The notes beneath the pieces were generated by a model that had not been told where the DNA came from, ran no database searches, and saw only the letters and a list, made by a program, of their open reading frames with translations. Below, one piece after another: positions 8,765 through 45,426 of a stretch of 45,426 bases of DNA (within the stretch, counting starts at the first letter, position 1; the number at the start of each line of letters is the position of its first letter). The DNA lies in the IMG/VR virus record IMGVR_UViG_3300030329_001104, positions 1-45,426 of that record. The stretch is one strand, 5' to 3'. The stretch is from a virus. Position numbers and translations under genes: made by a program.

Positions 8765-9121
8765 TTATATAACCTCCTCTCTGTTGTCTTCCACAGAATA
8801 ATCAACGTCGTCAACTGTTTCAGCAGAACCAGTTACTGTATTTGCTAATATTTCGTTCTCTACCAGAAGTAAATATCTGCGTAGATCTCTTATATCATCA
8901 AGTAGACCTGCCTCGCCAATGTAGACTTCGCCCGCTTCAAAGATATCCCAACCATGCTTTTCAGACTGGTGTTCAATTCTATCGAACTTACGTGCCAACA
9001 TCATAAAAGCACCGACGCCACCACGACGTTTCCAAGAGTCGCCATACGAGGTCTCAGCTTTTTGTAAAGCGTGTAGATCGTTTTGGGCAACCTCTTTCAT
9101 TGTTTCCCATTTATTGCTCAT
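8765..9121 (-). CDS. Phage YGDSWKRRGG-type protein, possibly nucleotide-modification associated
   Basis: 118 residues, mostly helical. The block SYGDSWKRRGGVGAFMMLAR (residues 25-44) and IRDLRRYLLLVENEIL belong to a family often found near phage nucleotide metabolism and DNA modification genes; it resembles DUF1599 (nucleotide modification associated domain 1), which is a tentative assignment. It overlaps the thymidylate-synthase-like gene by 11 bases, with AAAGGAGA before the ATG. The context supports a role with modified nucleotides. Confidence 0.65.
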   Translation of the reverse strand: MSNKWETMKEVAQNDLHALQKAETSYGDSWKRRGGVGAFMMLARKFDRIEHQSEKHGWDIFEAGEVYIGEAGLLDDIRDLRRYLLLVENEILANTVTGSAETVDDVDYSVEDNREEVI

Positions 9122-10163
9122 GAGTTTCTCCTTTTTCCGCGTTATTTAAAGTGTACGAAGTGTCTCGTTTGCGGATCCAGTCGAAACACGCCGTCATCCA
9201 ATCAAGCGCTTTTATTTTACTAACGGCTTGATATGAATCCATATAATTCCTTTGTTTGTGTTTAGTATAAGCAACCGTCATCGGTACCGCAATATCTTTA
9301 AACACAGGGTTCTCCCAAGTTGTATCGATTTGTATATCGTTGGGGTGATAATTAAAATACCTATATAATTCCCAGTGGAAAGTGTCTATATTAGTTATTA
9401 ATGGGAAAGGCTTATATCCGTCTATAAGCAGGTCGTAGGGGTTCTTTTTATAGCTAAAGGTATAGGGATCTATCTCTAACACCTTTAAACGCTCCCAGAC
9501 GTCGTTTAAATAGACGTGAAAGCTATCGCTAATCTGCCTATAGGTACCTATTTCTACGCCTATTGCTGTAGCTAAATACTCCTGTAAAACTGACATATGA
9601 ACCACGTTAGCTCCATAGGCTCCCCAAACCATATCGTTAGAGCGACAACATACAGTCATGTTTAATTTGCCCTCTCGTATTTTGAAATAAATATTAGTAT
9701 TACAAGGCACGTCTTTGCCGACCTTATTTAGATCCAAAACAGGATCCCACATTTGCAACACGCATCTCCTGTCTTCAGGATTTGTTTTTAACATCTGTAT
9801 AATAATATCGAGTTGGTCTTTATTAAAATAACTTTTCCAACGCCAACCGTAAGCTCCCCATAAAGTCTCCCCATCGTCTGAGAAGTCTTCCATGCTTTTA
9901 ACAAAATAGGTTAAGGGAGGTAGTTTATTACTGCCCTGCAACATCCATAGACTTTCTATGAGGTGAAAGAAAGGGTTAGCGTCTCTTTCTTTCAATAAAC
10001 ACACCCTCTCAAAAGGTTTGTTATAAACAGTGGTTACGGGTTCCAACGCCTCGTAAGTTGTGCCGTTTCTGCTCTCTTGTTCTCTAAAATTTGAAGAGTC
10101 TTGAAATAAATCAATGCCTAATAACAAGGCATCGTTTACATTTCTAGCATTTATAACTTTCAT
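9111..10163 (-). CDS. Thymidylate synthase-fold enzyme, possible dUMP hydroxymethylase
   Basis: 350 residues, longer than bacterial ThyA (about 264). The core aligns with ThyA: DRRCVLQMWDP, catalytic Cys154 in DVPCNT, the phosphate-binding Arg-Ser at 174-175, the nucleotide-recognition Asn186 in GANVVHMS, and ISDSFHVY. The Asn fits a uracil rather than cytosine substrate. The His usually after the catalytic Cys is Asn155, and the WGAYG context after RSND differs from LGLPFN of housekeeping ThyA. It may make dTMP or 5-hydroxymethyl-dUMP. The neighbouring thymine pyrophosphorylase homologue favours the second, but sequence alone cannot decide. Confidence 0.85.
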   Translation of the reverse strand: MKVINARNVNDALLLGIDLFQDSSNFREQESRNGTTYEALEPVTTVYNKPFERVCLLKERDANPFFHLIESLWMLQGSNKLPPLTYFVKSMEDFSDDGETLWGAYGWRWKSYFNKDQLDIIIQMLKTNPEDRRCVLQMWDPVLDLNKVGKDVPCNTNIYFKIREGKLNMTVCCRSNDMVWGAYGANVVHMSVLQEYLATAIGVEIGTYRQISDSFHVYLNDVWERLKVLEIDPYTFSYKKNPYDLLIDGYKPFPLITNIDTFHWELYRYFNYHPNDIQIDTTWENPVFKDIAVPMTVAYTKHKQRNYMDSYQAVSKIKALDWMTACFDWIRKRDTSYTLNNAEKGETHEQ

Positions 10164-10402
10164 AAAGTGTCCTGATACGCACCTACTAATTCATAGACCA
10201 TAGACTGTATATCTTCTTGGCTCAGTTGTGGAAGTTTCCTTTTTATAAAAGCAACCGCCATTTGTTCATTTGCTGCCACCTTTAAAAAGAAAGCCACTTC
10301 TAAAAACTGAGTGTAATAAATATCTATCAAATCTCCATGTTCTTCTAATAAAGAAACAATTCTTTCTTGCTCCTCTAGCGCTAGTTGGTTCATCTTGCCC
10401 AT
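10160..10402 (-). CDS. Small helical protein between base-modification genes, 80 residues
   Basis: Start ATG 10402 has AAGGAG seven bases upstream and overlaps the upstream gene by 13 bases; the stop overlaps the next start (ATGA). The product is all-helical in appearance (LALEEQERIVSLLEEHGDL, later EDIQSMVYELVGAYQDTL). No family recognised. Tight coupling on both sides suggests a partner subunit of one of its neighbours. Confidence 0.7.
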   Translation of the reverse strand: MGKMNQLALEEQERIVSLLEEHGDLIDIYYTQFLEVAFFLKVAANEQMAVAFIKRKLPQLSQEDIQSMVYELVGAYQDTL

Positions 10403-11316
10403 TTGCTTACTCCTTCTTCTAAATCTTCAACCAATGGAAGATCAGTATGTTTATAAATAGACCTTGTTCTTCCTTCTTTTTTATAAATACGTGAATATTT
10501 ATCAAATTCACAAAGTCCCCCTTCTACTTCTCTCATCTCAAATTTGCTATGAGGTATGAGAGAGCCGTTTAATCTTTCTTCTGTTGCTATTTTCCATAGC
10601 TTCTGCATTTCCTCGTTCCAGTTATGAGTTTTCTTAGAAAAACCTAAGTCTCTCCTTGTTAAACGATTAAGTCCTCGCATGGCTCCTGGACCTGCATTTG
10701 CCCAAGTAAGTATGTCTTTAGCGTCTTCTAATAAATAGGTGTGTCTTAGGTCGGTTACGACTTCATAAGACATAAAAGGACCCATGTAAGGATAATCTTT
10801 TAAAAGACTCCAAGTATGTTCTAAAGAAGCATTACCTTCTTCTCGTCTAGTTTCTAGTACATCGATTAAATACTGCCTATCTTTCCACATGTGGGAGACA
10901 CACTCAGCGACTCCTGTTACCTTATCCATTCGATTAGGTGTTTTAATGATGTAGGAACCAGTTACCCATTTATCCTGTTTAATTATTTCTTCTATAGCCT
11001 TCTTTCTATCCCATTCTAAATGCAGGTTATGTTTAAGTAATGTTCTTCCTGTTTCTATGTAGTTAAACCATCTAAATATGACAGTAGCCATTAAAACTTC
11101 ATGGCTATCTCTTAACGGTTCTCGTATATGCGTTTTAAACCAACGAGTAGTTCTATCATCTTCTCGAAACACTTGACAAAATTTAAACTCTTGAAGTATT
11201 GGGTCCTCTGTCCAAGGGGATTCTTCTTCAAGTTCCTCTTTTAGAACACGAATGTTCTCCCGTTCATGGAGCCAATAAAAGTATCGGTCTAATTCTTCTT
11301 CGTAGAACTCAGTCAT
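10390..11316 (-). CDS. Alpha-glutamyl/putrescinyl thymine pyrophosphorylase-like protein
   Basis: 308 residues. It carries hallmark blocks of the aGPT-pyrophosphorylase superfamily (clade 2/3 type): FKFCQVFREDDRTTRWF at residues 45-60, VIFRWFNYIETGRTLL, a GPFMSYEVVTDL block near residue 180, and a final TWANAGPGAMRGLNRL. In phages this family was linked by comparative genomics to hypermodified thymines such as alpha-putrescinyl- or alpha-glutamyl-thymine, made from 5-hydroxymethyl-uracil through a pyrophosphate intermediate. It is in an overlapping run with the ThyA-like enzyme and a methyltransferase. The hydroxymethyluracil DNA kinase expected in such a pathway is not in this window. Confidence 0.8.
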   Translation of the reverse strand: MTEFYEEELDRYFYWLHERENIRVLKEELEEESPWTEDPILQEFKFCQVFREDDRTTRWFKTHIREPLRDSHEVLMATVIFRWFNYIETGRTLLKHNLHLEWDRKKAIEEIIKQDKWVTGSYIIKTPNRMDKVTGVAECVSHMWKDRQYLIDVLETRREEGNASLEHTWSLLKDYPYMGPFMSYEVVTDLRHTYLLEDAKDILTWANAGPGAMRGLNRLTRRDLGFSKKTHNWNEEMQKLWKIATEERLNGSLIPHSKFEMREVEGGLCEFDKYSRIYKKEGRTRSIYKHTDLPLVEDLEEGVSKWAR

Positions 11317-29600: not shown

Positions 29601-29794
29601 TAGAAACGGCTCCTTGTTTTTATTCTTTTTCCGTTAGCCGTGTATATATAGAAGTCTGAACGACTTCCTTTCTTGCCTGCGTAAGCTTTTTTATCAACTC
29701 CAACCATGTCTCTCCTGCGTATTTTAACGTTTTGCGGGTTAAAGCCCTTCCCGTAAGCTGCAGCACAAGGTCTGGTCCCTTGATTATATATCAA
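29600..29794 (-). CDS. Small basic protein, start uncertain
   Basis: 64 residues from TTG 29794, which overlaps the cyclase stop, or 35 residues from ATG 29707, which has AGGAG close by. The longer frame looks coding (PCAAAYGKGFNPQNVKIRRR). Both versions end SDFYIYTANGKRIKTRSRF and are strongly basic. No family recognised. It is the last gene of the curli-cyclase block or the first of the next virion block. Confidence 0.55.
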   Translation of the reverse strand: MIYNQGTRPCAAAYGKGFNPQNVKIRRRDMVGVDKKAYAGKKGSRSDFYIYTANGKRIKTRSRF

Positions 29795-31581
29795 AAAGTG
29801 AAAATTTTTAAAGGTTTTTCTTTACCTTTTACTTGTATCGGGGAAAGTGGTTTTAAAGTATATCCACAAAAAAGTTCGGTTTGTTCACCAATTAAAACAG
29901 AAACTCCCGCTTCTTTAGTTCCTGATTCAAGTCTTGCAGCGGTATTTACTGCATCTCCAATAGCTGTATAATCAAATCTTGATGAGGAACCCATATTACC
30001 TATTACTGCTTCTCCTGTGTTTATTCCTATCCCTATTGCTATACTTGGTAAACTTTTACTTTCTAATTCTTTATTAAGTTCTTCCATATTCTTTATAATA
30101 TCTTTAGCGCAATCTACCGCTATTTTTGGGTGATTTAACAAGTCTAATGGAGCATTAAATATAGCCATCATTGCATCTCCAATGTACTTATCCACCATAC
30201 CACCGTGTTTTTGCACGGCTTCTTGTTGTGCGGTAAGGGCTTTGTTCATAATAAACGTAACTTCTTGAGGGTCCAATGCTTCAGACATGGCGGTGAAGCC
30301 TCGCACGTCTGTAAATAAGAAGGTAGCTTCTTTCTTTTCTCCTCCTAATTTTAGAAGATCAGGGTTCTTTTGTAGTTCTTTTACCTGTCTGGGGTCTAAA
30401 TAATGCTCAAATTGCTTCTTAATCTGTTGTCTTAGCTTATACTGTTCTCTAAATCTAAGGTAAAAAGCCGTAGTTCCTGTAATAAATTGGCTAATTAATG
30501 CCCAAGTAACGTCTATTAAAACCCCAGAACCTATCGTATAGACGCCGTAAGACGCCGTAAGCGCCAGTATAAGCCCCGCAGAGGTTACCCCTAGAGTTAT
30601 CCCAAAAAGGTTAATAAACGCCCATATAAGCGCTACAGAGGCTAAAAATATACCCAGTTCTAAGGCTAACGCATAATCAGGTATTTTGGGACTATCCTGG
30701 ATTAAAATAGACTCGGCTAATGCTGCCTGAATCTTATGTGGCTCAAGCAATCCAGCAGGAGTGGCAACCTGAGGCATAATGCCTTTAGCGGTGATACCCA
30801 CAAATACAAATCTTCCTTCAATATCAGGAGCTTCGTTATACAGCTCATTTAATGTAAATTCAGGAGTATCTACCCAACTAATCCATTTTCTACCTAATGA
30901 ATCCGTAGGAACAGGAGGAATACCACGAACACGAACTTCTTCTACTCCGTTGGGATTGGTTTTAATTACATAAGTGTCTGCGTTAGCTAAAACTTTTAAC
31001 ACTTCTGTACCATACGCGGAAACCCAACCGTCAGGTGTTCTCATTAATAACGGCATTCTTCTAACTAATTGATCAACATCTGTAGGAGCAATAGCTATTC
31101 CTTGTGTTGCATTGTTTTTAAGAAGATCTATATTTTCTATAACCCCCTGAGCCTTAAATCCTCCTACGTCATCCCCCATAACAACAGTTCCTGTTGTGGG
31201 AGGGTATTCTCCGTTATCGTTTTCAAACATAGCTAGAACACTAGGCGCGTACGACAAGACTTGGGCAAATTCAGCATCTCCTCCAAATCTATCTGGTTGT
31301 GGAAAGGCTATAACCCAACCCACACCTAGTGCTCCACTATTTAAAAGTTCTAAATGTATTTCAGCTAATCTTTGTCTTGGTAAAGGATAGCCGCCTTCTC
31401 TTGCTATATCTTCTTCGTTTATAGAAAGAATAGAAAAATAATTAGAAGGTTGTTGTTCCGCAACAAAAGAATCAAATACTTTAAGCTTAATAATTTCTAA
31501 AGGAGTCCACTGTTGCACTAGCGGTACTGCTAATAAAACAAGCAAACAAAGAAGTTGGAAAAACCTAATCACCTTGATCAA
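29791..31581 (-). CDS. CHASE2-domain class III adenylate cyclase
   Basis: 596 residues. Residues 7-24 are a membrane anchor, 26-300 an extracytoplasmic CHASE2 sensor, followed by the three membrane helices usual for CHASE2 (about 305-325, 328-350, 356-376), a coiled linker, and a cyclase domain from 415. Catalytic residues: metal-binding Asp425 (FTDVRGFT) and Asp469 (YIGDAMMAIF), ATP-selecting Lys465 and Thr539 (DYTAIGD), and transition-state Asn546 and Arg550 (NTAAR). All are intact, so cAMP synthesis is predicted. The frame has no ATG; TTG 31581 or GTG 31572 are the options, inside the curlin gene's 3' end, implying coupling. Highly unusual in a phage. Confidence 0.92.
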   Translation of the reverse strand: MIKVIRFFQLLCLLVLLAVPLVQQWTPLEIIKLKVFDSFVAEQQPSNYFSILSINEEDIAREGGYPLPRQRLAEIHLELLNSGALGVGWVIAFPQPDRFGGDAEFAQVLSYAPSVLAMFENDNGEYPPTTGTVVMGDDVGGFKAQGVIENIDLLKNNATQGIAIAPTDVDQLVRRMPLLMRTPDGWVSAYGTEVLKVLANADTYVIKTNPNGVEEVRVRGIPPVPTDSLGRKWISWVDTPEFTLNELYNEAPDIEGRFVFVGITAKGIMPQVATPAGLLEPHKIQAALAESILIQDSPKIPDYALALELGIFLASVALIWAFINLFGITLGVTSAGLILALTASYGVYTIGSGVLIDVTWALISQFITGTTAFYLRFREQYKLRQQIKKQFEHYLDPRQVKELQKNPDLLKLGGEKKEATFLFTDVRGFTAMSEALDPQEVTFIMNKALTAQQEAVQKHGGMVDKYIGDAMMAIFNAPLDLLNHPKIAVDCAKDIIKNMEELNKELESKSLPSIAIGIGINTGEAVIGNMGSSSRFDYTAIGDAVNTAARLESGTKEAGVSVLIGEQTELFCGYTLKPLSPIQVKGKEKPLKIFTF

Positions 31582-32278
31582 TGGTTATGGTTTTATTGCA
31601 ATTAGTCGTGCAATTATAATTAACGGTGATGCTCTTATTGGTGCTTCCTGATTGACTAGCCGTTACGTTATAGTCATCAGTATAAAAATTTAACCTCATA
31701 TAGTGATCTCCGCTCCCTGTTTGCGTTATCGTTGCTTCGTTATTGTCCGCTGAATTACTAGCATATATCTTTGCGTAATGCTCTCCCGAACCTGACTGAG
31801 TAATACTAAATTCCGAACTATCTCCAAAAGCCCTTATTTCTCCTTCCTTATCGTCGCCTGTTTGCGTAATAGTGTACACATTATTGTCCCCCTGCATATA
31901 AATCTCAGCGTCATTATTATTACCATTTTGAATTATATCCATGTCGTTACCATCATCGTCCGCGTCTATATAGCCAAAATTATCGTTGCCGTCTTGGTCT
32001 ATTTTGTATTTATTGCCTGTGTGATTTGCTACTTGGCTATAGGCTCTAGCGGTGTTGCTTGTACCTTCTTGATCTATATCTATTTCAGCGTTACTACAGT
32101 TATGGGTAGTGTAAGTGCCTTGCGATAAACCACACCACACCCTAGCAGTATTGCCTGTTCCTATTTGATCAATATGAATAAGAGAAGAACTCCCTTTTGT
32201 TCTAATCTCTGTGGAGTTGTCTCCCGCATACGCAAGAACAGAAATAAAACTAATCAGACTGATTGATAATAATTTCAT
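31565..32278 (-). CDS. Secreted curlin-repeat protein (second)
   Basis: 237 residues from ATG 32278, which follows GGAGGTGAAA. Signal peptide MKLLSISLISFISVLAYAG. The mature part is built of curlin-like units with the QxGxxN pattern: IHIDQIGTGNTARV, IDIDQEGTSNTARA, YKIDQDGNDN, YTITQTGDDK, FSITQSGSGEHYAK, ATITQTGSGDHYMR, KTITIDQGD. Four cysteines sit in pairs (VWCG...NCSN and NCTTNC), unlike standard CsgA. It should be exported and form beta-solenoid amyloid. It overlaps FecR upstream by 29 bases and the cyclase downstream by 17. Confidence 0.85.
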   Translation of the reverse strand: MKLLSISLISFISVLAYAGDNSTEIRTKGSSSLIHIDQIGTGNTARVWCGLSQGTYTTHNCSNAEIDIDQEGTSNTARAYSQVANHTGNKYKIDQDGNDNFGYIDADDDGNDMDIIQNGNNNDAEIYMQGDNNVYTITQTGDDKEGEIRAFGDSSEFSITQSGSGEHYAKIYASNSADNNEATITQTGSGDHYMRLNFYTDDYNVTASQSGSTNKSITVNYNCTTNCNKTITIDQGD

Positions 32279-33353
32279 TTTCACCTCCTCCATTTATCAT
32301 AACGTTTATTAATCTTCCAGCAGATAATATCTGTATATTATACCCTGCTCCTTTGTCTAATTCTAAATCTATAGTGTTTTCAACTTGTCTAACTAAAGTA
32401 AAAATCTCACCTTCGACAAACGTATAAACTTGAGCGTTTGGATCAAATCTAGGAATAATGCCCTCTATTCGTACTCCGTCTATTTCTCCTTCAGCTCCCT
32501 CATCTCTGCCTCCCGCAGATACTTCTTCTAAAATTTCTAATAAGTCTTGTAAAAAATCAACAGAAAGTAAGTCTATATCTAATCGGGTTATTTCTTCTTG
32601 TAGTTCATCTTTAGAAAGATCACTGTCATCGTCTAAATCATTTTCTTCTAAAAAATCAACGTCTAAAACATTACTTGAAACTTGGCTTTGTTCATCTATG
32701 GCGACTTTTACTTCTTCGGGAGGGTTCACTATTAATAAATTATCTATAAAATTTAAAGTAAGATTATTTATAACTACGGGCTTAGTGGGAGGGGCTTCAG
32801 AAACACTAACCATTGTTGCTTGGTACGGTTGATTAAGTATCTCTATGCCTGCCATTGTTTCTACCGTAATTTCTCCTGAAGAAGTTCCATCAGCTTGAGG
32901 CAATAGAATCACAAGAGAACGACCTAATTCATCTACAGTTGTGGTGAAATCAGTGCCACGAATAGCAATCGTAGCACTCGGAGTACGAATAGAAATGTTT
33001 TCTTTATCTATTCTTCCAAGCGCTCCAGTAATAAAACGGGCGGTTCCGCTTGCCATTTGAAGCGCCATTTTGCTTTTGCTTGGATCAGGATCATAGATAT
33101 ATTCATCGATAACAATTTTAGAATGTTCAGTAAGGCGAATAACAGATGAGTCAAGAAACTCAATACCAATACGACCATTCCCAGTACGCACGTCATCATA
33201 GCTAAGAATATCCAAATTAGCCGTTGCCAGTAATTTATCTGACTGATTTCCGCGAAGAACTTCTCCATTTCCCCTTAACTCAGAGATCTTCCCTATCTCA
33301 GAATAAATATTATTAAACGGTATTAATACTAATATTAACAGCCACTTGTGCAT
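32250..33353 (-). CDS. Secreted FecR-domain protein
   Basis: 367 residues. Signal peptide at residues 1-18 (MHKWLLILVLIPFNNIYS). Residues 22-150 form a FecR-type domain: GEVLRGNQ, DDVRTGNGRIGIEF, SVIRLTEHSKIVIDEY, ALQMASGTARFITG, then ISIRTPSATIAIRGTDF. An acidic helical linker follows (DVDFLEENDLDDDSDLSKDE), then a C-terminal beta part ending NGGGENEIIINQSD, which itself looks like half a curlin repeat. FecR-domain proteins and CHASE2 cyclases often occur together in bacteria. It may sense envelope or curlin state and pass it to the cyclase; this is inference. Confidence 0.88.
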   Translation of the reverse strand: MHKWLLILVLIPFNNIYSEIGKISELRGNGEVLRGNQSDKLLATANLDILSYDDVRTGNGRIGIEFLDSSVIRLTEHSKIVIDEYIYDPDPSKSKMALQMASGTARFITGALGRIDKENISIRTPSATIAIRGTDFTTTVDELGRSLVILLPQADGTSSGEITVETMAGIEILNQPYQATMVSVSEAPPTKPVVINNLTLNFIDNLLIVNPPEEVKVAIDEQSQVSSNVLDVDFLEENDLDDDSDLSKDELQEEITRLDIDLLSVDFLQDLLEILEEVSAGGRDEGAEGEIDGVRIEGIIPRFDPNAQVYTFVEGEIFTLVRQVENTIDLELDKGAGYNIQILSAGRLINVMINGGGENEIIINQSD

Positions 33354-34024
33354 TGGTCTACGTCGATAGTACCGTTGCTAGTTGTAGCGGTTATAACAAC
33401 CACACCCGAAGTGCTACCAGTGCTATTTGTCTGGTCTATGTCTACATCATTAGTGTTTCCTGTAAGTTCCACCGTAATTGAATGATCAGCGTTTCCTGTT
33501 TGAGTTGTATCAATATCATTAGAATCACCATCAATGTCCCAATTATTAATGCACCCAACCACTTCACAAGTTGCATTCAAGTTATTAGAGGTACCTGCAA
33601 TAACTATGTCTTGATTACCTGCTGTTGCTGTAGCTGCAGCACCTTGAGTAAACGAAACTACGTTTGAATCTCCTGTTGCCGCATAATCAAAATCAGTATT
33701 AGCAACGTCTCCTGTTGCACCAAAAGCTAACGTCGTTTGGTTACTATCTCCTGTATGTGTGGTTGTAAATGAAGTGCTATTACCTTGAGCCACCGAGGCA
33801 GCCATTGTATTGCTATCTCCTATTTGATCTATATCAACAGTCATAGAAGTCCCTGTAAAGGTCGCTCTAGTTTGAGACGTACCTACTACGTTTGTGTCTC
33901 CTATTTGGTCAACATTCATAGTTAGTCCTGTTCCAGACTGAGTAATATAAATATCATTGTTTCCTGCAAAGAGTATTGGGGTAAACAATAACCCCAAGAA
34001 AGCTAATTTACAAAGTTTTTTCAT
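33335..34024 (-). CDS. Secreted curlin-repeat protein (first)
   Basis: 229 residues with signal peptide MKKLCKLAFLGLLFTPILFAG and RBS AGGAGG. Repeat units include IYITQSGTGLTMNVDQIGDT, VDIDQIGDSNTMAA, HTGDSNQTTLAF, ATGDSNVVSFTQ, WDIDGDSNDIDTTQTGN and NTNDVDIDQTN, all in the alternating beta and QxGxxN style of curlin. Cysteine pairs occur at TCEVVGC and at the extreme C-terminus (QCTSGC). It directly follows CsgG with a 4-base overlap, so it is a likely secretion substrate of that pore. Confidence 0.85.
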   Translation of the reverse strand: MKKLCKLAFLGLLFTPILFAGNNDIYITQSGTGLTMNVDQIGDTNVVGTSQTRATFTGTSMTVDIDQIGDSNTMAASVAQGNSTSFTTTHTGDSNQTTLAFGATGDVANTDFDYAATGDSNVVSFTQGAAATATAGNQDIVIAGTSNNLNATCEVVGCINNWDIDGDSNDIDTTQTGNADHSITVELTGNTNDVDIDQTNSTGSTSGVVVITATTSNGTIDVDQCTSGC

Positions 34025-34869
34025 TTTTCCTCCTGACTTGGCTCAAGTTTGGAATAGTCAAAATCCCATAATTCTTTCTCCAAGCCTTTTATAATTAAAG
34101 TATAAACTGCTTCTTCAATCGCTGCTCGAGTTGCGTAACCTACTGCTTCATTTTCAGTATACCCAGTCTCAAGTTCAACAAGTTCGGTGCCCATTTCTAT
34201 AAAACGAAACACGTCTCTACTTATCCCTGCGCTCAAAACAGTTTTACTTACCGTACAGTTTACCATAACTTCACCTGTTTGTACTAATATAGCACGCAAA
34301 GAAACAGTTATCTCATCTCTACGGTATTGCCCACTAGACCCAATCCCTAAGTATCTAGCTCCATTTCCCCCTGTTTCTATATTGGTATCATATTGCACTA
34401 TGCCACCTTCTATAAGAATTCCTGCAAAAAGAAGGGGCTTTAACGTATTCCCACTCTCTCCGTTATAGGTTTGTCTTGTTTGTTTTATAAGTTGTCTTTC
34501 TCTTGTTAATGCGTCTAAGCCTTTTCTTTCTACAACCACGAACCAATTACCGTTTCCTGCGCTTCTTAATGCGTCTATTAGATAATTATCTGCTCCTTGA
34601 GTAACTGCTGTACTAAATAAAGCCATCTTCTGTGAACTTTTACGCTGACCTGTTAAGTCTTGGAAATTATAGATAGCTACAACAGCTTTTTGATTAGGGT
34701 ATGGAAGATTAACTAATTTTTCGTGAGTGGGTCTTACTATCTTTGCCTTTTCTATACACTCTATGAAACTTGCGCACCCTGTATCGTTTATATCAGGAGC
34801 AAAACTTGCACAACCTTGAAACAAAGGAAGTAAGAGAACAGCTACTATATGCCACAGTCTTCTGAACAT
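34021..34869 (-). CDS. csgG: CsgG-like curli secretion lipoprotein
   Basis: 282 residues, about the length of E. coli CsgG (277). Signal and lipobox LLPLFQGC with lipidated Cys20. The body has CsgG family blocks: NQKAVVAIYNFQDLTGQRK, FSTAVTQGADNYLIDAL, WFVVVERKGLDALTRERQLI, ILIEGGIVQYDTN, GARYLGIG and VSLRAILVQTGEVM. CsgG makes a nonameric outer-membrane pore that exports curlin subunits. The gene lies between CsgF and the first curlin gene, as expected for a working system. A role of the pore in virion release is also imaginable. Confidence 0.92.
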   Translation of the reverse strand: MFRRLWHIVAVLLLPLFQGCASFAPDINDTGCASFIECIEKAKIVRPTHEKLVNLPYPNQKAVVAIYNFQDLTGQRKSSQKMALFSTAVTQGADNYLIDALRSAGNGNWFVVVERKGLDALTRERQLIKQTRQTYNGESGNTLKPLLFAGILIEGGIVQYDTNIETGGNGARYLGIGSSGQYRRDEITVSLRAILVQTGEVMVNCTVSKTVLSAGISRDVFRFIEMGTELVELETGYTENEAVGYATRAAIEEAVYTLIIKGLEKELWDFDYSKLEPSQEEK

Positions 34870-35375
34870 ATTCCAAATATCCCCACTGGGATAATTATAG
34901 TAGTAACATTGCCATCAGCGTCTGTTACTGTTAACGTAATATTAATTCCATCGTTTACAAAAGTTATGGTGCTTCCCTCTAACTCTATACTGCCCCCCGT
35001 TCCTCCTTTTTCAGAATCAAATAAACTCTCAGCAATATCTCTTGATAATTGACTATAGATTCTACTTTCTAAATTTCTTAAAAATTTAGCTAGTGTGGTG
35101 TTTTCTGCTTCTCTTTCTGCTTCTTTTAGTGCGTCTTCAACTTTTTGAGCTTCTTCATCTCGCCTAGTTTTTTCTTGTTCGTCAATAGTTAAGTAATGTG
35201 AAGACGTTGCCACCCCATTAAAAGAAGGGCTTTTAAATTCATGAACTATTTCATCAGCAGGTAGAATTCCTACATAAAAGAACAACATTAAATAAAATAT
35301 TGTACATAAAGCAATAGACGAGAAAAAAAGTCCTAGACTTCCTTCATTCTTTTCTGTTCTTTTGTTCTTGCTCAT
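34845..35375 (-). CDS. csgF: CsgF-like curli assembly protein
   Basis: 176 residues. Residues 13-40 form a signal or anchor (FFSSIALCTIFYLMLFFYVG). The mature part aligns in order with CsgF: EFKSPSFNG (the RNPNFGG block that enters the CsgG pore), an added charged helix, LRNLESRIYSQLSRDIAESL (the FTQAIQSQILGGLL helix), then ITFVNDGINITLTVTDADGN (the C-terminal beta part). Length exceeds E. coli CsgF (138) because of a longer N-terminus and an inserted helix. Overlaps CsgG by 25 bases. Confidence 0.83.
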   Translation of the reverse strand: MSKNKRTEKNEGSLGLFFSSIALCTIFYLMLFFYVGILPADEIVHEFKSPSFNGVATSSHYLTIDEQEKTRRDEEAQKVEDALKEAEREAENTTLAKFLRNLESRIYSQLSRDIAESLFDSEKGGTGGSIELEGSTITFVNDGINITLTVTDADGNVTTIIIPVGIFGICSEDCGI

Positions 35376-35607
35376 TTTCTTCTTCCTTTAACTCAAGTAC
35401 AGTATTTACCTTCTCCTGTAGTCGTATCATGTCCTGATCTAAAAGTCTTAATTGATCGGTTAGCCGTATAATAGTGATTTTCATTTGCTCTACTGCAGGG
35501 TCTATTTTGTTCGTTACGGTTTGCCATACAAAATAAACGAAATAACCAAGTCCAACTACCATTACCACAGGAAAACCAAACTCCGAGACTAATTGGACTA
35601 TATCCAT
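35344..35607 (-). CDS. Membrane-anchored coiled-coil protein, 87 residues
   Basis: N-terminal membrane helix (FPVVMVVGLGYFVYFVWQTV) followed by a coiled coil (ITIIRLTDQLRLLDQDMIRL) and a Glu/Lys tail. It resembles in layout its upstream neighbour, which also begins with a short GLPV or GFPV helix. It could be a holin accessory, spanin-like or membrane-organising protein. Coupled to that neighbour by a one-base overlap. Confidence 0.7.
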   Translation of the reverse strand: MDIVQLVSEFGFPVVMVVGLGYFVYFVWQTVTNKIDPAVEQMKITIIRLTDQLRLLDQDMIRLQEKVNTVLELKEEENEQEQKNRKE

Positions 35608-35903
35608 TAATCTCTCCTAGCATCTATTTTCCCGTCTTCTACAAAATTTTCTGCTCTAGCTATCCTGGATAAATCAGGAGGTAAGTTTAGTGCGCTAGAA
35701 ACACTTGTATCTATGCGGATAATATCATTATTCATTATAGACGCTCTAGTTATAAGCATTTTAGAAATACCCTCTACTTCTTTAATATCATCAACTAATC
35801 CATTCATTAGTTGTTTCATGATAAGAAAAATGAAATAAGCCATAATTAGCCCCCCTGCAACAGGTAAACCTAACTCAGCTATTAATGCAAAACTCTCTTC
35901 CAT
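35607..35903 (-). CDS. Membrane-anchored coiled-coil protein, 98 residues
   Basis: Begins MEESFALIAELGLPVAGGLI and has one membrane helix near residues 12-32, then a charged helical stretch and a polar end. The shared ELGLPV / EFGFPV start and layout suggest it is an old paralogue of the product of 35344-35607. Function unknown. Confidence 0.7.
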   Translation of the reverse strand: MEESFALIAELGLPVAGGLIMAYFIFLIMKQLMNGLVDDIKEVEGISKMLITRASIMNNDIIRIDTSVSSALNLPPDLSRIARAENFVEDGKIDARRD

Positions 35904-37250: not shown

Positions 37251-37697
37251 TTAATCTCCTTGTAAGACCCTGTCTCTTAGTCTAACTGCCCTGTCTCCAA
37301 CCTGTTCCGCCCATTTTGAATCCATCATTTCAATAGCCGATTTTTCCCAGTCCTTATTTTCTAAAGCAATTAAAAACTTTTTAAATTTTAATAATCTGTT
37401 GATGCCTAGATTAAAACACATATTAGCAACAACTCGTTGTAAGTCTTCTGATAAATCTCTCCACCAAGAAATATTTCTATCTAAATCGTTAAAAACATTT
37501 TCTATATCCTGTTCGAAACACTCTATTACTCTTTCTTCAGAAACAGGTGTTCCTATTTCTTTTCCAAATTCGGCATCACTATCTAAAACTAAATGACCAA
37601 TTCCAAAAGTAGCATAGCCTAAATGATCTTCGTAAATCTCGTAGAGACATCCCTCGTCAAAAGTTAGTTCTTCTCTTAATTTATCTATATTTATCAT
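37251..37697 (-). CDS. T4-type lysozyme (endolysin, GH24)
   Basis: 148 residues. The catalytic triad of T4 lysozyme is present: Glu15 (FDEGCL), Asp24 (YEDHLGY) and Thr30 (ATFGIGHL). The C-terminal helices carry the conserved AVRLRDRVLQ end. It cuts peptidoglycan at the end of infection. There is no signal or SAR sequence, so it needs a holin; candidates lie at 40096-40272 and 36064-36456. Confidence 0.93.
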   Translation of the reverse strand: MINIDKLREELTFDEGCLYEIYEDHLGYATFGIGHLVLDSDAEFGKEIGTPVSEERVIECFEQDIENVFNDLDRNISWWRDLSEDLQRVVANMCFNLGINRLLKFKKFLIALENKDWEKSAIEMMDSKWAEQVGDRAVRLRDRVLQGD

Positions 37698-38017
37698 AGG
37701 CTTATTGTTGTCGCTCCGTTTGTAGATACGCTTAGAGTACCTAGCGCACTTACCCCCTCAACCCCTCTTTCGGTTCCTGTGTATATATCAATCCATTGTT
37801 TACCATTCCACAACTGTAATTGGCTAGTAGAAAGATTCCAAATAAAATCTCCTGTTTGAAATTTATTTTCGTTTCGTTGAGTTTCATTAACATTTAAAGT
37901 AGCGTTTACATCTACTGTGTTTAAACTTAACTCTAAAACCCTTACTAAACGGTTAAATGTTTCTGGTGAAATCTCTCCTATTGCAGTAGGAAGCTTAGTT
38001 TCTAATAACTTACCCAT
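37694..38017 (-). CDS. Small virion-associated protein, 107 residues
   Basis: N-terminal helical region (ETFNRLVRVLELSLNTVDV), then FIWNLSTSQLQLWNGKQW and a Gly/Ser/Thr-rich end. The QLQLWNGKQW block is typical of short tail-fibre-associated or adaptor proteins. Overlaps the tail nozzle gene by one base. Exact role unknown. Confidence 0.65.
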   Translation of the reverse strand: MGKLLETKLPTAIGEISPETFNRLVRVLELSLNTVDVNATLNVNETQRNENKFQTGDFIWNLSTSQLQLWNGKQWIDIYTGTERGVEGVSALGTLSVSTNGATTISL

Positions 38018-39909
38018 TAACGTCTTCCATCAGGTTGAATAGCTAGTCTCATCGCACCTACTCTGAAACTCATACCTGTTACATTGGTATCATCATCGTT
38101 AGATTGTATGCGTAATACTGCTTGTCGTCCACGTACTCTTGTATCTATTTTAGTAGTTACTGAAGTGCAAGAACCTGTTAATGCAGTAGTTAAACTTTCT
38201 CCAGGATAATTTCTTCGTTTTAAGACAACTTCAGCAGTCTGCCCATCACTTCCTGTACTTGCGGTTCCTGTAAATTTTATATCGGGAATAATTTTACTAA
38301 TGAATGAAAAGTCCTCACCATCACCTAAATCAAAATCACTAGACTCTATAAACACATTCGTCATAGCAGATCCATCATCATCGTCTCCTGTTTCATGGTC
38401 GTATAGATAGCCCGTGTCAGAGCTTGAATACGTTCCCATAGGCACACTAAAAATTCCCTCATCTATCCATGAGGTTCTTGTAAGCTGCCCTATTGTCCAA
38501 ACATTTTCTTCGTAATTGTACACAACATATCTATCAATTACCGTTTCTCCATCAGAACAATAAAACCAACCCACTTCATTAAAGGCTTTATTAACAAAAC
38601 CAAAAATTTGGTGTGTTTGTGTGTCGTTAATATCATCAAACACATGAGAGTCTACTGTGCAGGGAAGTTGTTGTATAGCTCCTGTATAGGAGTAAAATCC
38701 TTTTTTGTCCATCCAAAAAACTCCTTTAGGAGTATTAATCATGGCGTTGGGTCCAACTAATCCCACACCTTCATTAACTAAATTTACACTAAACGTAAAC
38801 GGCTGTCCAACAAAAGTCATTGAATATAATGAAGTATCTGTCCAAACTAAAGTTTCTTGTCTTGCCCTAGTCGCACCTATAATAGAAGACCCTGCCGACA
38901 GTTTAAAAGAACCTGCGGTATTTGTCGATTTTGGCTCCCACTCCGTTATATTTTCCTGGTCGCACCAAGCTATATTTAGAGGATCAACACTTCCTGTCCT
39001 AGATGTTCCTGAAATAGGATCTGCTCCAAGACAAATTACGTGTCTATCTACATCACTAACTAAAGTTTGTAATGCTACGGTAGGGGCTAAATTCGCACCA
39101 CTTAAATCACTTAAAGCTACTGCTCTATCTGTTCCTAATGTTTTAGTGCTAGTTTCCCAATAATAAATTCCTCCTGCTCTGGGATTTATTATTAAATCCT
39201 CTCCAAAATTATCTTGGCTCCACAATCTTAATTGATTAGTTAATCCCAAAGTACCCGCAGAACCAAAACCTCCTGCGCCCCATGTTCCAATACCCCAACC
39301 TGTAGAAGGAACATAAACATCTAACCCCACATTGATCTGATAAGCGCCTACAACTGAAGAACCTCCGTTACCGCTGTCGCTAGCGTTTGCTGTAACAGTA
39401 GCTCCAGAAGTATCTTTTGCTTCGATAGTGTAGCTGTTTACATTAACAACAGTTGCTATTTGATATTCTTGATTAAGAACATTGGCTGTGATATTTCCAC
39501 CTAAAGTAGCAGCACCGCTGAAAGTAACAAAATCATTTTGAACTGCTCCGTGACTTGAATCTGTAACAGTTATTGTTGCATCTCCATTAGTAGCAGAAAA
39601 TGTAACGTCTCCCGCAGATGTTGTTGTCCTTAAAGGAGTTATATCATAAAAATTTGCTCCCTCTTTTATATAGTATTTCCAAGTAGTCCCTATTCCTAAA
39701 AACTTAGTTCCCGCTAAAGAAACCCAAGCATGCAAAGCTCTTGAGGTGGATTTAAACGTATTTGTAGTATTTTTAACCCACCCTCCAATTTTTTCAGGGA
39801 GTCCTTTGCGGAATCGAATTAAATTAGAGTTAAACCAACCCCCTTCATTAGAGTAATCAGTCCCCTCTCTATTAATTCCTGGTCTAAATAAAATTTTTTG
39901 TAAGGGCAT
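38017..39909 (-). CDS. Tail nozzle/hub-type protein (gp10/gp12-like family)
   Basis: 630 residues. The N-terminus FRPGINREGTDYSNEGGW followed by NLIRFRKGLPEKIGGW is the signature of a large family of podovirus structural proteins, often called stabilisation or tail nozzle proteins. The body shows beta-propeller-like repeats (ICLGADPISG, YYWETSTKTLG, FWMDKKGFYSYTG, DRYVVYNYEENVWTIGQL) and an insertion of Ig-like style near residues 100-190 (GDATITVTDSSHGAVQND). It most likely forms the distal tube of a short tail. Confidence 0.82.
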   Translation of the reverse strand: MPLQKILFRPGINREGTDYSNEGGWFNSNLIRFRKGLPEKIGGWVKNTTNTFKSTSRALHAWVSLAGTKFLGIGTTWKYYIKEGANFYDITPLRTTTSAGDVTFSATNGDATITVTDSSHGAVQNDFVTFSGAATLGGNITANVLNQEYQIATVVNVNSYTIEAKDTSGATVTANASDSGNGGSSVVGAYQINVGLDVYVPSTGWGIGTWGAGGFGSAGTLGLTNQLRLWSQDNFGEDLIINPRAGGIYYWETSTKTLGTDRAVALSDLSGANLAPTVALQTLVSDVDRHVICLGADPISGTSRTGSVDPLNIAWCDQENITEWEPKSTNTAGSFKLSAGSSIIGATRARQETLVWTDTSLYSMTFVGQPFTFSVNLVNEGVGLVGPNAMINTPKGVFWMDKKGFYSYTGAIQQLPCTVDSHVFDDINDTQTHQIFGFVNKAFNEVGWFYCSDGETVIDRYVVYNYEENVWTIGQLTRTSWIDEGIFSVPMGTYSSSDTGYLYDHETGDDDDGSAMTNVFIESSDFDLGDGEDFSFISKIIPDIKFTGTASTGSDGQTAEVVLKRRNYPGESLTTALTGSCTSVTTKIDTRVRGRQAVLRIQSNDDDTNVTGMSFRVGAMRLAIQPDGRR

Positions 39910-41320: not shown

Positions 41321-44300
41321 TTACTCCTTATTAAGTTTACTTTCTAATTCTTCGACTTTTGCCGAAAGTTCTTGCACTGCTTTAACCATCATTGGCATTA
41401 AATTACCAAAGGCTATTTGCTGTGTTCCATCTGGGTCTTCGCTCCAAATATTATTACCGTCTGCGATTTCATCAGAATGTTTGTCTATTATAGCCTTTAC
41501 TTCTTGAGCTACAAAACCATGATTAACTTTTCCAAAACCTTTACATGGCTCCTCTGAATCAGCTTCATATTGAGACATATCTTCTGGAACATCTTTCTTA
41601 GCTTTCCATTTATATGTAACAGGCCTTAACTCGTTTATAAAAGATAATCCTGCAGTTGAATCTTTTATGTTATCTTTTAATCGTTCATCTGAAGCTGCTG
41701 CCCATGAAGTATCAGATCCGTCTATGCTTAAAGTAGCTGAATTAGTTGCTTGTCCAAAACGTACTGTATTTGCTCCACCCGCACTAAAATTATATCCAAT
41801 AGCTATTTCATTACTTACTGTCGCTCCACTACCTCTAACAGCAGAACCTATGCACACATTATAATTTCCTGTAGTCATTGATACAGTGTTATAACCCGCC
41901 TGATACCCGATCAGGGTATTTTCTCCGCCTGTACTAACACTTTTACCTGTGTCTATTCCTACAGCTACATTATTACTTCCTGCTGCTACTACGAGCGCTT
42001 CACTTCCTACAGCTGTATTTCCTGCTCCTGTTGTTACGTCTCTTAGTGCTTCTGAACCAAAGGCTGTATTGTCGCTGCCTGTTGTTATATTAGTTCCCGC
42101 TAAATACCCTACAGCCGTACTATATGAAGCAGTAGTTACTGCTTCACCTGCATCTTTACCTACAGCCACGTTTCCACTACCTGAAGTATTTGCTGTTAAA
42201 GCATTATGACCTACGGCTGTATTAGATGAGGCAGTTGTAGCTGTAGCTAGAGCATTTGTTCCAACCGCAACATTAACTGTACCTGTAGTATTAACTTTTA
42301 AAGCATTTCTACCAACCGCAACATTGTTATCGGCTGTAGTATTTCCACCTAAAGCACTTCTTCCAACAGCAGTATTAGATGAGCCTGTTGTGTTAGCATC
42401 TAAAGAGTATGACCCCATAGCTACGTTGTAACTTCCTGTGGTATTAGCACCCATAGTTTCATAACCAAAGGCGTCATTACCTTCACCAGTTGTATTAGCG
42501 TCTAAAGCATTTACTCCGAAAGCGTTATTTTGATCTCCTGTTGTGTTACTAAGTAATGCGTTTCTACCAACAGCAACGCTAGATCCACCAGTTGTGTTTG
42601 CAGCTAATGCTGCATAGCCAAGTCCTGTATTATTAGCTCCTGTTGTATTAGCCTCTAATGCGAAAGCTCCCATTGCTGAATTGTCTGAACCAGTTGTATT
42701 TGCTGTTAACGTATTATGTCCAACAGCTGTATTATTACTAGCTGTTGTAGCAGCGTCTAATGCTAAAGCACCTAAAGCAGTATTTTGCGCCCCTGTTGTG
42801 TTGCTCATTAAAGCTTGCATACCTACAGCTGTATTATTATTAGCTGTTGTATTACCATTTAAAGCATTATGCCCAACTGCGACATTTTGCGTCCCTGTTG
42901 TATTATCTCCTAGAGCTCCATACCCAAATGCGTTATTGTTTGAAGCTGTCGTGTTTGCTTTTAAAGCATGCCTACCTACCGCAGTATTATTTGATCCTGT
43001 CGTGTTTGCTCCTAAAGCATTATCACCTAACCCTGTGTTGTAACTACCAGTGGTATTAGCATCTAAAGAGCTTTGACCTAAAGCAGTATTGTTTGATCCT
43101 GTTGTATTTGATAATAAGGCTTGTGTTCCTATTGCTGTATTATCTCCAACAGTGGTGGCTGCTAGAGCATTATATCCAAAAGCAGTTCCGTTGTTTCCTG
43201 TTGTGATTGCACCAAGTGCATTATAACCTATAGCTGTATGCCAAGTCCCTGTTGTGTTAGCGTCTAAGGCTTGGTAGCCTACAGCAATGTTTGAGCCTCC
43301 TGTTGTGTTGGCAGCTAAAGCATCTCTACCTACTGCTACGTTATTACTACCTGTTTCGTTTAATTCTAAAGCATCTCTACCTATAGCAGTATTATTTGAT
43401 GCTGTGGTATTTGTTTTTAGAGTTCCATAACCTAGTGTCGTATTGCTCGCACCTGTAGTATTAGCGTTCATAGCTAAACCACCCACAGCAGTATTAGCTG
43501 TTCCTGTTGTGGTTGCTCCTGCTGCGTTATAGCCAACTGCCACATTATAAGCATCTGTATTACTATCAGGATTGTAAGCTGTTAATGCGTTATAACCGAC
43601 TGCAACATTTCTGTCACCTACTGTATTTGCATCTAAGGCATAGTTACCTACAGCGACATTTAAGTCCCCTGTAGTATTAGCAGTCATTGTATTATATCCA
43701 ATCGCTAAATTATTAGAGGCAGTTGTACTAGCTGCGAGTGCTACCCTACCTATTGCAGTATTATAACCACCTGTAGTATTACCTCCTAAAGAATCATTAC
43801 CTACAGCTATGTTGGCAGTTCCTGTGGTGTTAGCGTCTAAAGCTGCATATCCTAGTGCAGTGTTATGGTCAGCTGTAGTGTTCTTTCTTAATGCCTGCAT
43901 ACCTACAGCAGTGTTGTAATCACCAGTAGTAGAATCTTCTAAAGCTTCTTTACCTAATGCAGTATTACCTCCTCCTGTAGTTACACTCTTACCTGCTTCA
44001 TTACCGACTGCAGTATTAGAGTCTCCTGTAGTGTTTGCCTTTAATGCATCATTACCTACTGCTGTGTTGTTAGATGCTGTAGTGTTTGCATACAAAGCAT
44101 TTCTACCAACAGCTGTATTACTAGCACCTGTAATATTAGTACCTAAAGAACTTTTACCTACGGCTGTGTTGTAACTAGCTGTTGTATTCGCATCTAAAGA
44201 TAAACCACCAACTGCCACGTTATCTATACCTGTGGTGTTTGCTGCTAAAGAATTATAACCAACAGCTACGTTATTATCACCAGTTGTAACTGCTGTACCT

Positions 44301-45426
44301 GCATTAATACCTAGGGCAGCATTGTAATTACCACTTGAGGCTGTTAAAGAATCTAATGCTCCTGACCCTAAACCTATGTTACTTGTAGCAGTTGTAATAG
44401 CATCTGTTAATTCTGCTATAGCTGCTGCACCTCCACTAGCTGCATTAGTTTCCCAAGTTACTGTACCACTTCCATCAGTTGTTAAAACTTGGTTAGCTGA
44501 ACCATCTGCTGTAGGTAAGGTATATGCTGAATTTATTGTTAATGCACCGAGATGACCTAGTAATAATCTTTGGTCCATTGTCTGCGTTGATGCTGAACTG
44601 TCTGATGTATAAAATCCTATACCCATATGATCTGCATCTGAACCTGTTTGTACTGAAGCTATAGCTGAACCAGAACGAAAATTTGAACCATCAGCTTTAC
44701 CAAAAGCTAAAACAGCCTGTACATTATTAGTACCTGCTGTACCACCTGATCTTAAGAATAGTGCCTCTCCTGCGTGTGTATCGGTATCAAATGTTGGTGC
44801 TGTTGAATTAACTGCTGTGATTGTTCCTTTAGCAGAAGTTACTCCAATAGTTAAGTTTCCATTAGTATCAAATCTAGCCATTTCGTTAGCTGAACCATTT
44901 AAAAACTGTAAGTTTCCAGAATCTGTACCTAAATAGTTTCCACCTGAACCATCTACTATTCTTATATATGCACCAGTACCTGAAGCTCTATTTATGTGAA
45001 GCATTTCTGAAGGTGAAACTGTCCCTATACCTACTCTTTTATCTGCTGTAACTCCAAAATATCCACCACTTGAATCTTCTACTCTTATAGCTGTACCTGA
45101 ATCTTGTCTAATGTCTAATTTAGCAGCAGCACTTGTGTTACCTATTGCTAAGTTTCCTGACGAATCCACCCTTAATGCTTCTGAACCTCCTGTTACAACT
45201 CTCCATGTATCTGCAGATGGAAACCCAATGTATGTATCTGTATCTCCTATGTGTCTAATAATACTTGCTATATCAACGTCAGCACCATTAATAGTAACAT
45301 TTCCATTAAAGGTTGCTGCACCTGCATTAGACATATCAAGTGTAAGGGCAGTAATATTTGATGAATTATCTACACCTTTGAATACTAAGTCTTGGTCGTT
45401 TATTTCTGATTTAATTACAAAATCAT
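41321..45426 (-). CDS. Tail fibre/spike with YadA-head-like repeats and S74 chaperone, N-terminus beyond right edge
   Basis: At least 1367 residues, open to the right edge. An ATG at 45334 is internal: the frame upstream reads VIKSEINDQDLVFKGVDNSS and ITALTLDMSNAGAATFNG, a usual tail-fibre segment. After about 360 residues of beta-rich fibre come about 50 tandem 17-residue repeats (consensus NTAVGxxALxANTTGxx), a beta-roll seen in YadA heads. The C-terminus is an S74 intramolecular chaperone (SDERLKDNIKDSTAGLSFI, VTYKWKAK, HGFVAQEVKAII) with a final coiled coil. S74 domains trimerise and cut themselves off at the Ser before DERLK. It is the likely receptor-binding protein. Confidence 0.92.
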   Translation of the reverse strand, partial: DFVIKSEINDQDLVFKGVDNSSNITALTLDMSNAGAATFNGNVTINGADVDIASIIRHIGDTDTYIGFPSADTWRVVTGGSEALRVDSSGNLAIGNTSAAAKLDIRQDSGTAIRVEDSSGGYFGVTADKRVGIGTVSPSEMLHINRASGTGAYIRIVDGSGGNYLGTDSGNLQFLNGSANEMARFDTNGNLTIGVTSAKGTITAVNSTAPTFDTDTHAGEALFLRSGGTAGTNNVQAVLAFGKADGSNFRSGSAIASVQTGSDADHMGIGFYTSDSSASTQTMDQRLLLGHLGALTINSAYTLPTADGSANQVLTTDGSGTVTWETNAASGGAAAIAELTDAITTATSNIGLGSGALDSLTASSGNYNAALGINAGTAVTTGDNNVAVGYNSLAANTTGIDNVAVGGLSLDANTTASYNTAVGKSSLGTNITGASNTAVGRNALYANTTASNNTAVGNDALKANTTGDSNTAVGNEAGKSVTTGGGNTALGKEALEDSTTGDYNTAVGMQALRKNTTADHNTALGYAALDANTTGTANIAVGNDSLGGNTTGGYNTAIGRVALAASTTASNNLAIGYNTMTANTTGDLNVAVGNYALDANTVGDRNVAVGYNALTAYNPDSNTDAYNVAVGYNAAGATTTGTANTAVGGLAMNANTTGASNTTLGYGTLKTNTTASNNTAIGRDALELNETGSNNVAVGRDALAANTTGGSNIAVGYQALDANTTGTWHTAIGYNALGAITTGNNGTAFGYNALAATTVGDNTAIGTQALLSNTTGSNNTALGQSSLDANTTGSYNTGLGDNALGANTTGSNNTAVGRHALKANTTASNNNAFGYGALGDNTTGTQNVAVGHNALNGNTTANNNTAVGMQALMSNTTGAQNTALGALALDAATTASNNTAVGHNTLTANTTGSDNSAMGAFALEANTTGANNTGLGYAALAANTTGGSSVAVGRNALLSNTTGDQNNAFGVNALDANTTGEGNDAFGYETMGANTTGSYNVAMGSYSLDANTTGSSNTAVGRSALGGNTTADNNVAVGRNALKVNTTGTVNVAVGTNALATATTASSNTAVGHNALTANTSGSGNVAVGKDAGEAVTTASYSTAVGYLAGTNITTGSDNTAFGSEALRDVTTGAGNTAVGSEALVVAAGSNNVAVGIDTGKSVSTGGENTLIGYQAGYNTVSMTTGNYNVCIGSAVRGSGATVSNEIAIGYNFSAGGANTVRFGQATNSATLSIDGSDTSWAAASDERLKDNIKDSTAGLSFINELRPVTYKWKAKKDVPEDMSQYEADSEEPCKGFGKVNHGFVAQEVKAIIDKHSDEIADGNNIWSEDPDGTQQIAFGNLMPMMVKAVQELSAKVEELESKLNKE
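41770..44335 (-). repeat. About 50 tandem 51-bp coding repeats
   Basis: Each 51-bp unit encodes 17 residues of the NTAVG..AL.ANTTG type. Roughly 50 units were counted in the translation; a few have 1-4 residue changes in length (one NPDSNTDA insert, one 16-residue unit). Copies differ from each other at DNA level, so it is an old array, but it is a good substrate for expansion and contraction. Confidence 0.88.

Follow-up and report, generated by a model that had tools for sequence, protein, structure and literature searches.

A curli-type gene cassette with FecR-domain and CHASE2-cyclase genes in a relative of pelagiphage HTVC023P

A published pelagiphage module and its copy in the window

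Curli-type genes have been described in pelagiphages before. In pelagimyophages, Zaragoza-Solas et al. 2020 (PMC7029224) noted csgF and csgG together with a gene associated with curli. Buchholz et al. 2022 (PMC9004378) found csgGF in phage Melnitz, stated that csgA/B was missing, saw no clumping in culture and proposed a lysis-related pore (pinholin/secretin). Wittmers et al. 2022 (PMC9599517) described a longer series of genes, CsgF-CsgG-CsgA/B-FecR-CsgA/B-adenylate cyclase, in SAR11 podoviral and myoviral pelagiphages; in marine metatranscriptomes they detected genes of the module, which they also reported from each of the 65 GOV2.0 stations. We found no measurement of fibers, amyloid or cAMP in the literature for any of these phages.

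The DNA analyzed here (“the window”) covers the 45,426 bases of an IMG/VR virus record. The DNA polymerase that it encodes shares 55% identity with that of phage 023Pt_psg01 and 51% with that of Pelagibacter phage HTVC023P; the virion protein encoded at 38017-39909 has matches in HTVC027P and its relatives as well. By sequence comparison the phage is related to pelagiphage HTVC023P and, to judge from these relatives, its host is probably SAR11.

Six overlapping frames lie on the minus strand exactly where the original prediction had placed them. They encode, from 5' to 3', a CsgF-like protein, CsgG, a curlin-repeat protein (curlin-1), a FecR-domain protein, a second curlin-repeat protein (curlin-2) and a CHASE2-cyclase (Table 1). 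Neighboring frames overlap by 4-44 nt, an arrangement consistent with one translationally coupled operon. All of the predicted family identities were matched in Pfam, that of curlin-1 by way of its relatives. The block proved larger than predicted, however, as one or two genes for small membrane proteins upstream of CsgF (h1 and h2) belong to it too.

Table 1. Genes of the cassette in the window, listed in the direction of the minus strand
Product	Position	Strand	Remarks	Profile match (E-value)
h2	35607..35903	-	98 aa, opens the conserved cassette	phrog_18771 (4.5e-21)
h1	35344..35607	-	87 aa, paralogue of h2	phrog_18771 (5.2e-27)
CsgF-like protein	34845..35375	-	52.3 bits (cut-off 25.8)	Pfam CsgF (8.3e-14)
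CsgG	34021..34869	-	outer-membrane lipoprotein pore	Pfam CsgG (4.3e-56)
Curlin-repeat protein 1	33335..34024	-	CsgA/B-like, signal peptide	Curlin_rpt (0.0012)
FecR-domain protein	32250..33353	-		Pfam FecR (1.4e-12); phrog_37870 (1.8e-78)
Curlin-repeat protein 2	31565..32293	-	CsgA/B-like, five repeats	Curlin_rpt (1.2e-16)
CHASE2 sensor and class III nucleotide cyclase	29791..31581	-	TTG start	CHASE2 (1.6e-26); Guanylate_cyc (1.7e-20)

These are the genes, in the same order, of the type VIII secretion (T8SS) module of Wittmers et al. (PMC9599517), which takes the form CsgF-CsgG-CsgA/B-FecR-(CsgA/B)-AC in HTVC023P-type podoviruses and pelagimyophages. All six are also present, again in this order, in the cultured phages HTVC008M and Melnitz, where the FecR, cyclase and CsgG proteins show 33-48% identity to those of the window. 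Unlike the window phage, both are T4-like myoviruses, and their second curlin protein is longer and, in HTVC008M, includes a PA14 domain. The original claim that no described phage system holds all six parts is thus incorrect; the block is an instance of the published pelagiphage module and is already known. The interest left in the module lies in its function and in corrections to its description, which concern the absence of a histidine kinase, the absence of an anti-sigma part in FecR and the presence of curlin genes in Melnitz, and which bear on two conflicting published explanations.

A CsgG scan yielded 80 viral loci, the genes of which were then annotated by profile. As the original prediction had suggested, the gene order was sought among viral contigs, and h(1-2)-CsgF-CsgG-curlin-FecR-(curlin)-cyclase was kept in all 80 loci, allowing for losses and contig ends, without any rearrangement. 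Where a locus departed from this pattern, genes were lacking, in many cases at the end of a contig, or, in a few cases, a call was split or additional. Because the order is conserved over these loci, HTVC008M and Melnitz, the cassette genes are maintained as a unit. The set is genuine, well conserved and probably functional in infected cells; its broad conservation makes the module a good target for direct test. Several virus contigs (L036-L040) carry h-CsgF-CsgG-curlin-FecR without a detected cyclase, and in at least two of them the locus lies well inside the contig.

The original prediction had also raised the possibility of an assembly chimera with bacterial DNA. We reject this because, in two other IMG/VR records, the block and the DNA on either side of it align colinearly with the window for 13.7-14.4 kb at 98.5-98.8%. 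With structural genes and an endolysin-like gene (37251-37697) as its neighbors, the block was fairly described as lying in a late virion/lysis region.

Pore, curlin-repeat and small upstream proteins

We think it fairly probable that the cassette is an auxiliary phage operon by which the infected cell secretes curli-like fibers through a CsgG/CsgF pore, with FecR and the CHASE2-cyclase as a linked envelope-sensing pair. The operon would derive from an alphaproteobacterium-like source and would have been passed among unrelated marine phages. Late in infection, its products would be exported by the host Sec system; CsgF would plug into the outer-membrane pore made by CsgG, and the two curlin-repeat proteins would pass through this pore and polymerize to surface fibers. 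In the periplasm, the FecR-domain protein would pair with the CHASE2 domain of the cyclase to sense the state of the envelope or of fiber assembly, and a cyclic nucleotide, probably cAMP, would be made as a result. Most likely, the phage would benefit because the infected cell or its debris is held near new hosts, or is shielded from competing phages. The genes, their order and overlapping frames, the export-type N-termini and the cyclase catalytic residues are established for the operon. As an idea, the full phage-borne curli program that had been predicted is supported; pore parts and fiber subunits are both present. Against it count the lack of clumping in Melnitz cultures, the absence of CsgE and CsgC from the operon, the divergence of curlin-1 and the want of an obvious cAMP receptor. 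Clumping of infected cells and receptor masking, which had been suggested too, are conjectural.

The lipobox cysteine of CsgG (Cys20) is invariant in the family alignment, and the window protein matched E. coli CsgG structures in the PDB (3.3e-47). The constriction segment of E. coli CsgG differs from that of the phage: of the E. coli constriction residues, the Y/N/F set, only the Phe was aligned. In CsgF, the N-terminal HxFxxPxFxG segment is invariant in the family alignment; a CsgF profile gave no match to a solved structure among PDB sequences. The window shares CsgG and CsgF homologues and curlin repeats with E. coli csgBAC/csgDEFG but has FecR and the CHASE2-cyclase in addition, while CsgD, CsgE and CsgC were not found among the cassette ORFs. 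The latter three are also absent from the published pelagiphage modules (PMC9599517), and CsgE is cited in PMC7029224 as raising export without being essential for it. A CsgG-like protein was also seen in a phage record of 1,499 bases (OR851715.1, “Salmonella phage S.Kent 1-2-1”), possibly a bacterial fragment.

Curlin-1 was the weakest call of the six, with a score (19.2 bits) just below the Pfam Curlin_rpt cut-off (20.7). Nine of 14 members of its family matched Curlin_rpt (best 4.8e-6), its position was identical in every full locus, and its Q/G/N pattern gives two curlin motifs where shuffled sequences predict 0.02 (four versus 0.02 for curlin-2). Its AlphaFold model is all-beta (mean pLDDT 85.6), and a Foldseek search of the PDB with this model returned nothing at E <= 0.001. 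By sequence, curlin-1 is a divergent repeat protein. Curlin-2 scored 60.7 bits with Curlin_rpt and also matched the NCBIfam models for CsgA (1.7e-14) and CsgB (3.8e-13), both under the curated cut-offs.

The PA14 domain on the second curlin-repeat protein of cultured HTVC008M (L082:10638-11960) suggests a ligand-binding fiber component. In other proteins PA14 domains are often sugar-binding, and the presence of one on this protein therefore fits the idea of an adhesive fiber.

In the Melnitz record, two curlin-repeat genes occur in the same order as in the window (L083:7881-10672). Both match Curlin_rpt, which contradicts the published statement that this phage is without csgA/csgB (PMC9004378).

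The small proteins h1 and h2 (87-98 aa in the window) have one hydrophobic segment each, and h2 has a coiled-coil-like tail. The h2 gene was directly upstream of CsgF or h1 in most loci, and h1 was present in about half of the 80. At this place, Wittmers et al. (PMC9599517) report one or two histidine kinases, whereas the window has these one-helix proteins. No match to a kinase family was obtained in relatives of h1 and h2, and a HATPase_c domain occurred in none of 15 phage records, which included complete HTVC008M and Melnitz. Judged by position, the kinase label was probably given to the h proteins by mistake.

It could be argued that the purpose of the cassette is the pore and not the fiber. 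Following the proposal made for Melnitz, which did not clump (PMC9004378), CsgG/CsgF would be a late membrane-permeabilizing or gating device for lysis and the one-helix h proteins its holin-like partners. The lysis-type genes nearby and a weak holin-family match of h1 (0.0017) are in keeping with this. However, the proposal rested on the supposed lack of csgA/csgB in Melnitz, no lysis gene is annotated within the HTVC008M region examined, and FecR and the cyclase are left unexplained. We therefore regard a lysis pore as unlikely.

The FecR-domain protein and the CHASE2-cyclase

According to its AlphaFold model and the alignment, the FecR-domain protein opens with a short export-type segment; the FecR domain follows, then an acidic disordered linker and, at the C-terminus, a conserved beta domain, with the folded part starting near residue 20. 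Its best fold matches in the PDB were an anti-sigma factor, the PupR signaling domain and a cell-surface anchoring domain; a FecR profile found no match among PDB sequences, and a search of plasmids returned only partial, generic FecR-domain matches.

In FecR anti-sigma regulators, the periplasmic FecR domain is preceded by an N-terminal cytoplasmic anti-sigma domain and a transmembrane helix. Neither the model nor the sequence of the phage protein contains a cytoplasmic anti-sigma part or a strong hydrophobic membrane segment, and a role as iron regulator is accordingly unsupported. This bears on the suggestion of Wittmers et al. (PMC9599517) that the module is a channel for nutrient import (cobalamin, siderophores) with FecR as an iron-signaling regulator. 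In its favor are the FecR name and the CsgG pore being open when CsgE is absent (PMC9599517). On the other hand, the N-terminus of the protein is of the export type, neither FecI nor FecA was annotated in the cassettes examined, and an import channel would make the conserved curlin genes pointless. We consider this explanation very improbable.

Alternatively, the FecR-domain protein might belong to the structure of the fiber, as an anchor or a nucleator, and not be a partner in sensing. Its gene has a curlin gene on either side, a portion of its model resembles the cell-surface anchoring domain 5ix9 (TM-score 0.72 to target), it has distant similarity to the surface adhesin Lsa33 (1.7e-6), and 31 of 80 relatives share a curlin-like QxGxxN motif whose position close to the C-terminus is constant. 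However, those 31 sequences are closely related and thus not independent, the window copy is without the motif, and the curlin-repeat profile did not reach significance on FecR relatives (best 0.33). The curlin-like tail is only a lead, and we doubt that FecR belongs to the fiber itself. A linked sensor pair of FecR and CHASE2-cyclase, as had been predicted, is plausible by analogy, because FecR-domain and CHASE2-cyclase genes also cluster in Campylobacterota (PMC9239204).

By its residues, the cyclase is a putative class III adenylate cyclase with a CHASE2 sensor. The metal-binding aspartates D425 and D469, the adenine-selecting lysine K465 and R550 were invariant in all 12 sequences compared; N546, which together with R550 makes up the transition-state residues, was conserved in 11.

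Less certain is the cAMP output in the infected cell that was originally proposed. The catalytic residues speak for it; against it, a cNMP-binding domain was found in only one of eight genomes of the sampled SAR11 genus and in none of the 15 phage records, so that there is no obvious cAMP receptor. For these small samples, and with the host assigned through relatives, a conventional CRP-type output looks unlikely, and an effect of cAMP on the host is doubtful. In the same eight genomes, the sole class III cyclase above the cut-off was on the phage contig of one MAG, and CsgG occurred on that contig only. It could be speculated that FecR and the CHASE2-cyclase are a checkpoint for fiber assembly, giving a cAMP-type signal in a host without a conventional receptor, and that the holin-like h proteins tie fiber export to the timing of lysis. 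Such a scheme is a long shot; if true, the phage would encode an envelope-sensing circuit that differs from the forms of lysis and curli control described so far.

Bacterial counterparts, transfer and other genes of the window

A search of genome collections for FecR relatives gave nine loci, of which only those of Caulobacteraceae were left as bacterial. Two MAGs of this family (L090 and L091) carry CsgF-CsgG-two curlin-like proteins-FecR-CHASE2-cyclase, the same six-gene set as the phage, with FecR 41% identical over nearly its full length. In contrast to the phage, in which the curlin genes lie on either side of FecR, both curlin-like genes precede it here; there are no small h proteins, and the flanks are bacterial (those of L091, read gene by gene, look like ordinary chromosomal genes). 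The curlin-like proteins of these MAGs matched a profile of phage curlin-1 and had no Pfam match.

This six-gene form is, on sequence evidence, a rare variant in bacteria, because samples of 385 genomes from the class and 299 from the family contained the full-length FecR type in one and two genomes, respectively, and five other alphaproteobacterial CsgF loci had CsgF-CsgG-curlins without such a FecR or cyclase nearby.

Loci from MAGs labeled Pelagibacter, Maricaulis, Neomarinimicrobiota, Sphingobacteriales and Flavobacteriaceae (L085-L089, L093) look like phage contigs and were not counted as bacterial, for they had phage-type h genes wherever the contig included the upstream part. These contigs with phage-type cassettes are probably phage DNA that was binned with the MAGs.

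Even modules nearest to that of the window, with CsgG identities of 75-80%, can sit in phages with a DNA polymerase only 24-30% identical, and this fits transfer of the cassette between phage lineages, as argued by Wittmers et al. (PMC9599517).

A DNA-level search of phage records with the window gave no match, and a promoter scan found no more sites than in shuffled sequences. Elsewhere in the window (9111-11316), a protein with a 5-hmdU DNA kinase helical domain adjoins thymidylate synthase, which suggests DNA base hypermodification; this pair resembles the hypermodification genes noted for several clades by Wittmers et al. 2022 (PMC9599517). The gene at 41321-45334 encodes a virion or tail-spike protein of 1,337 aa with dozens of NTAVG-type repeats.
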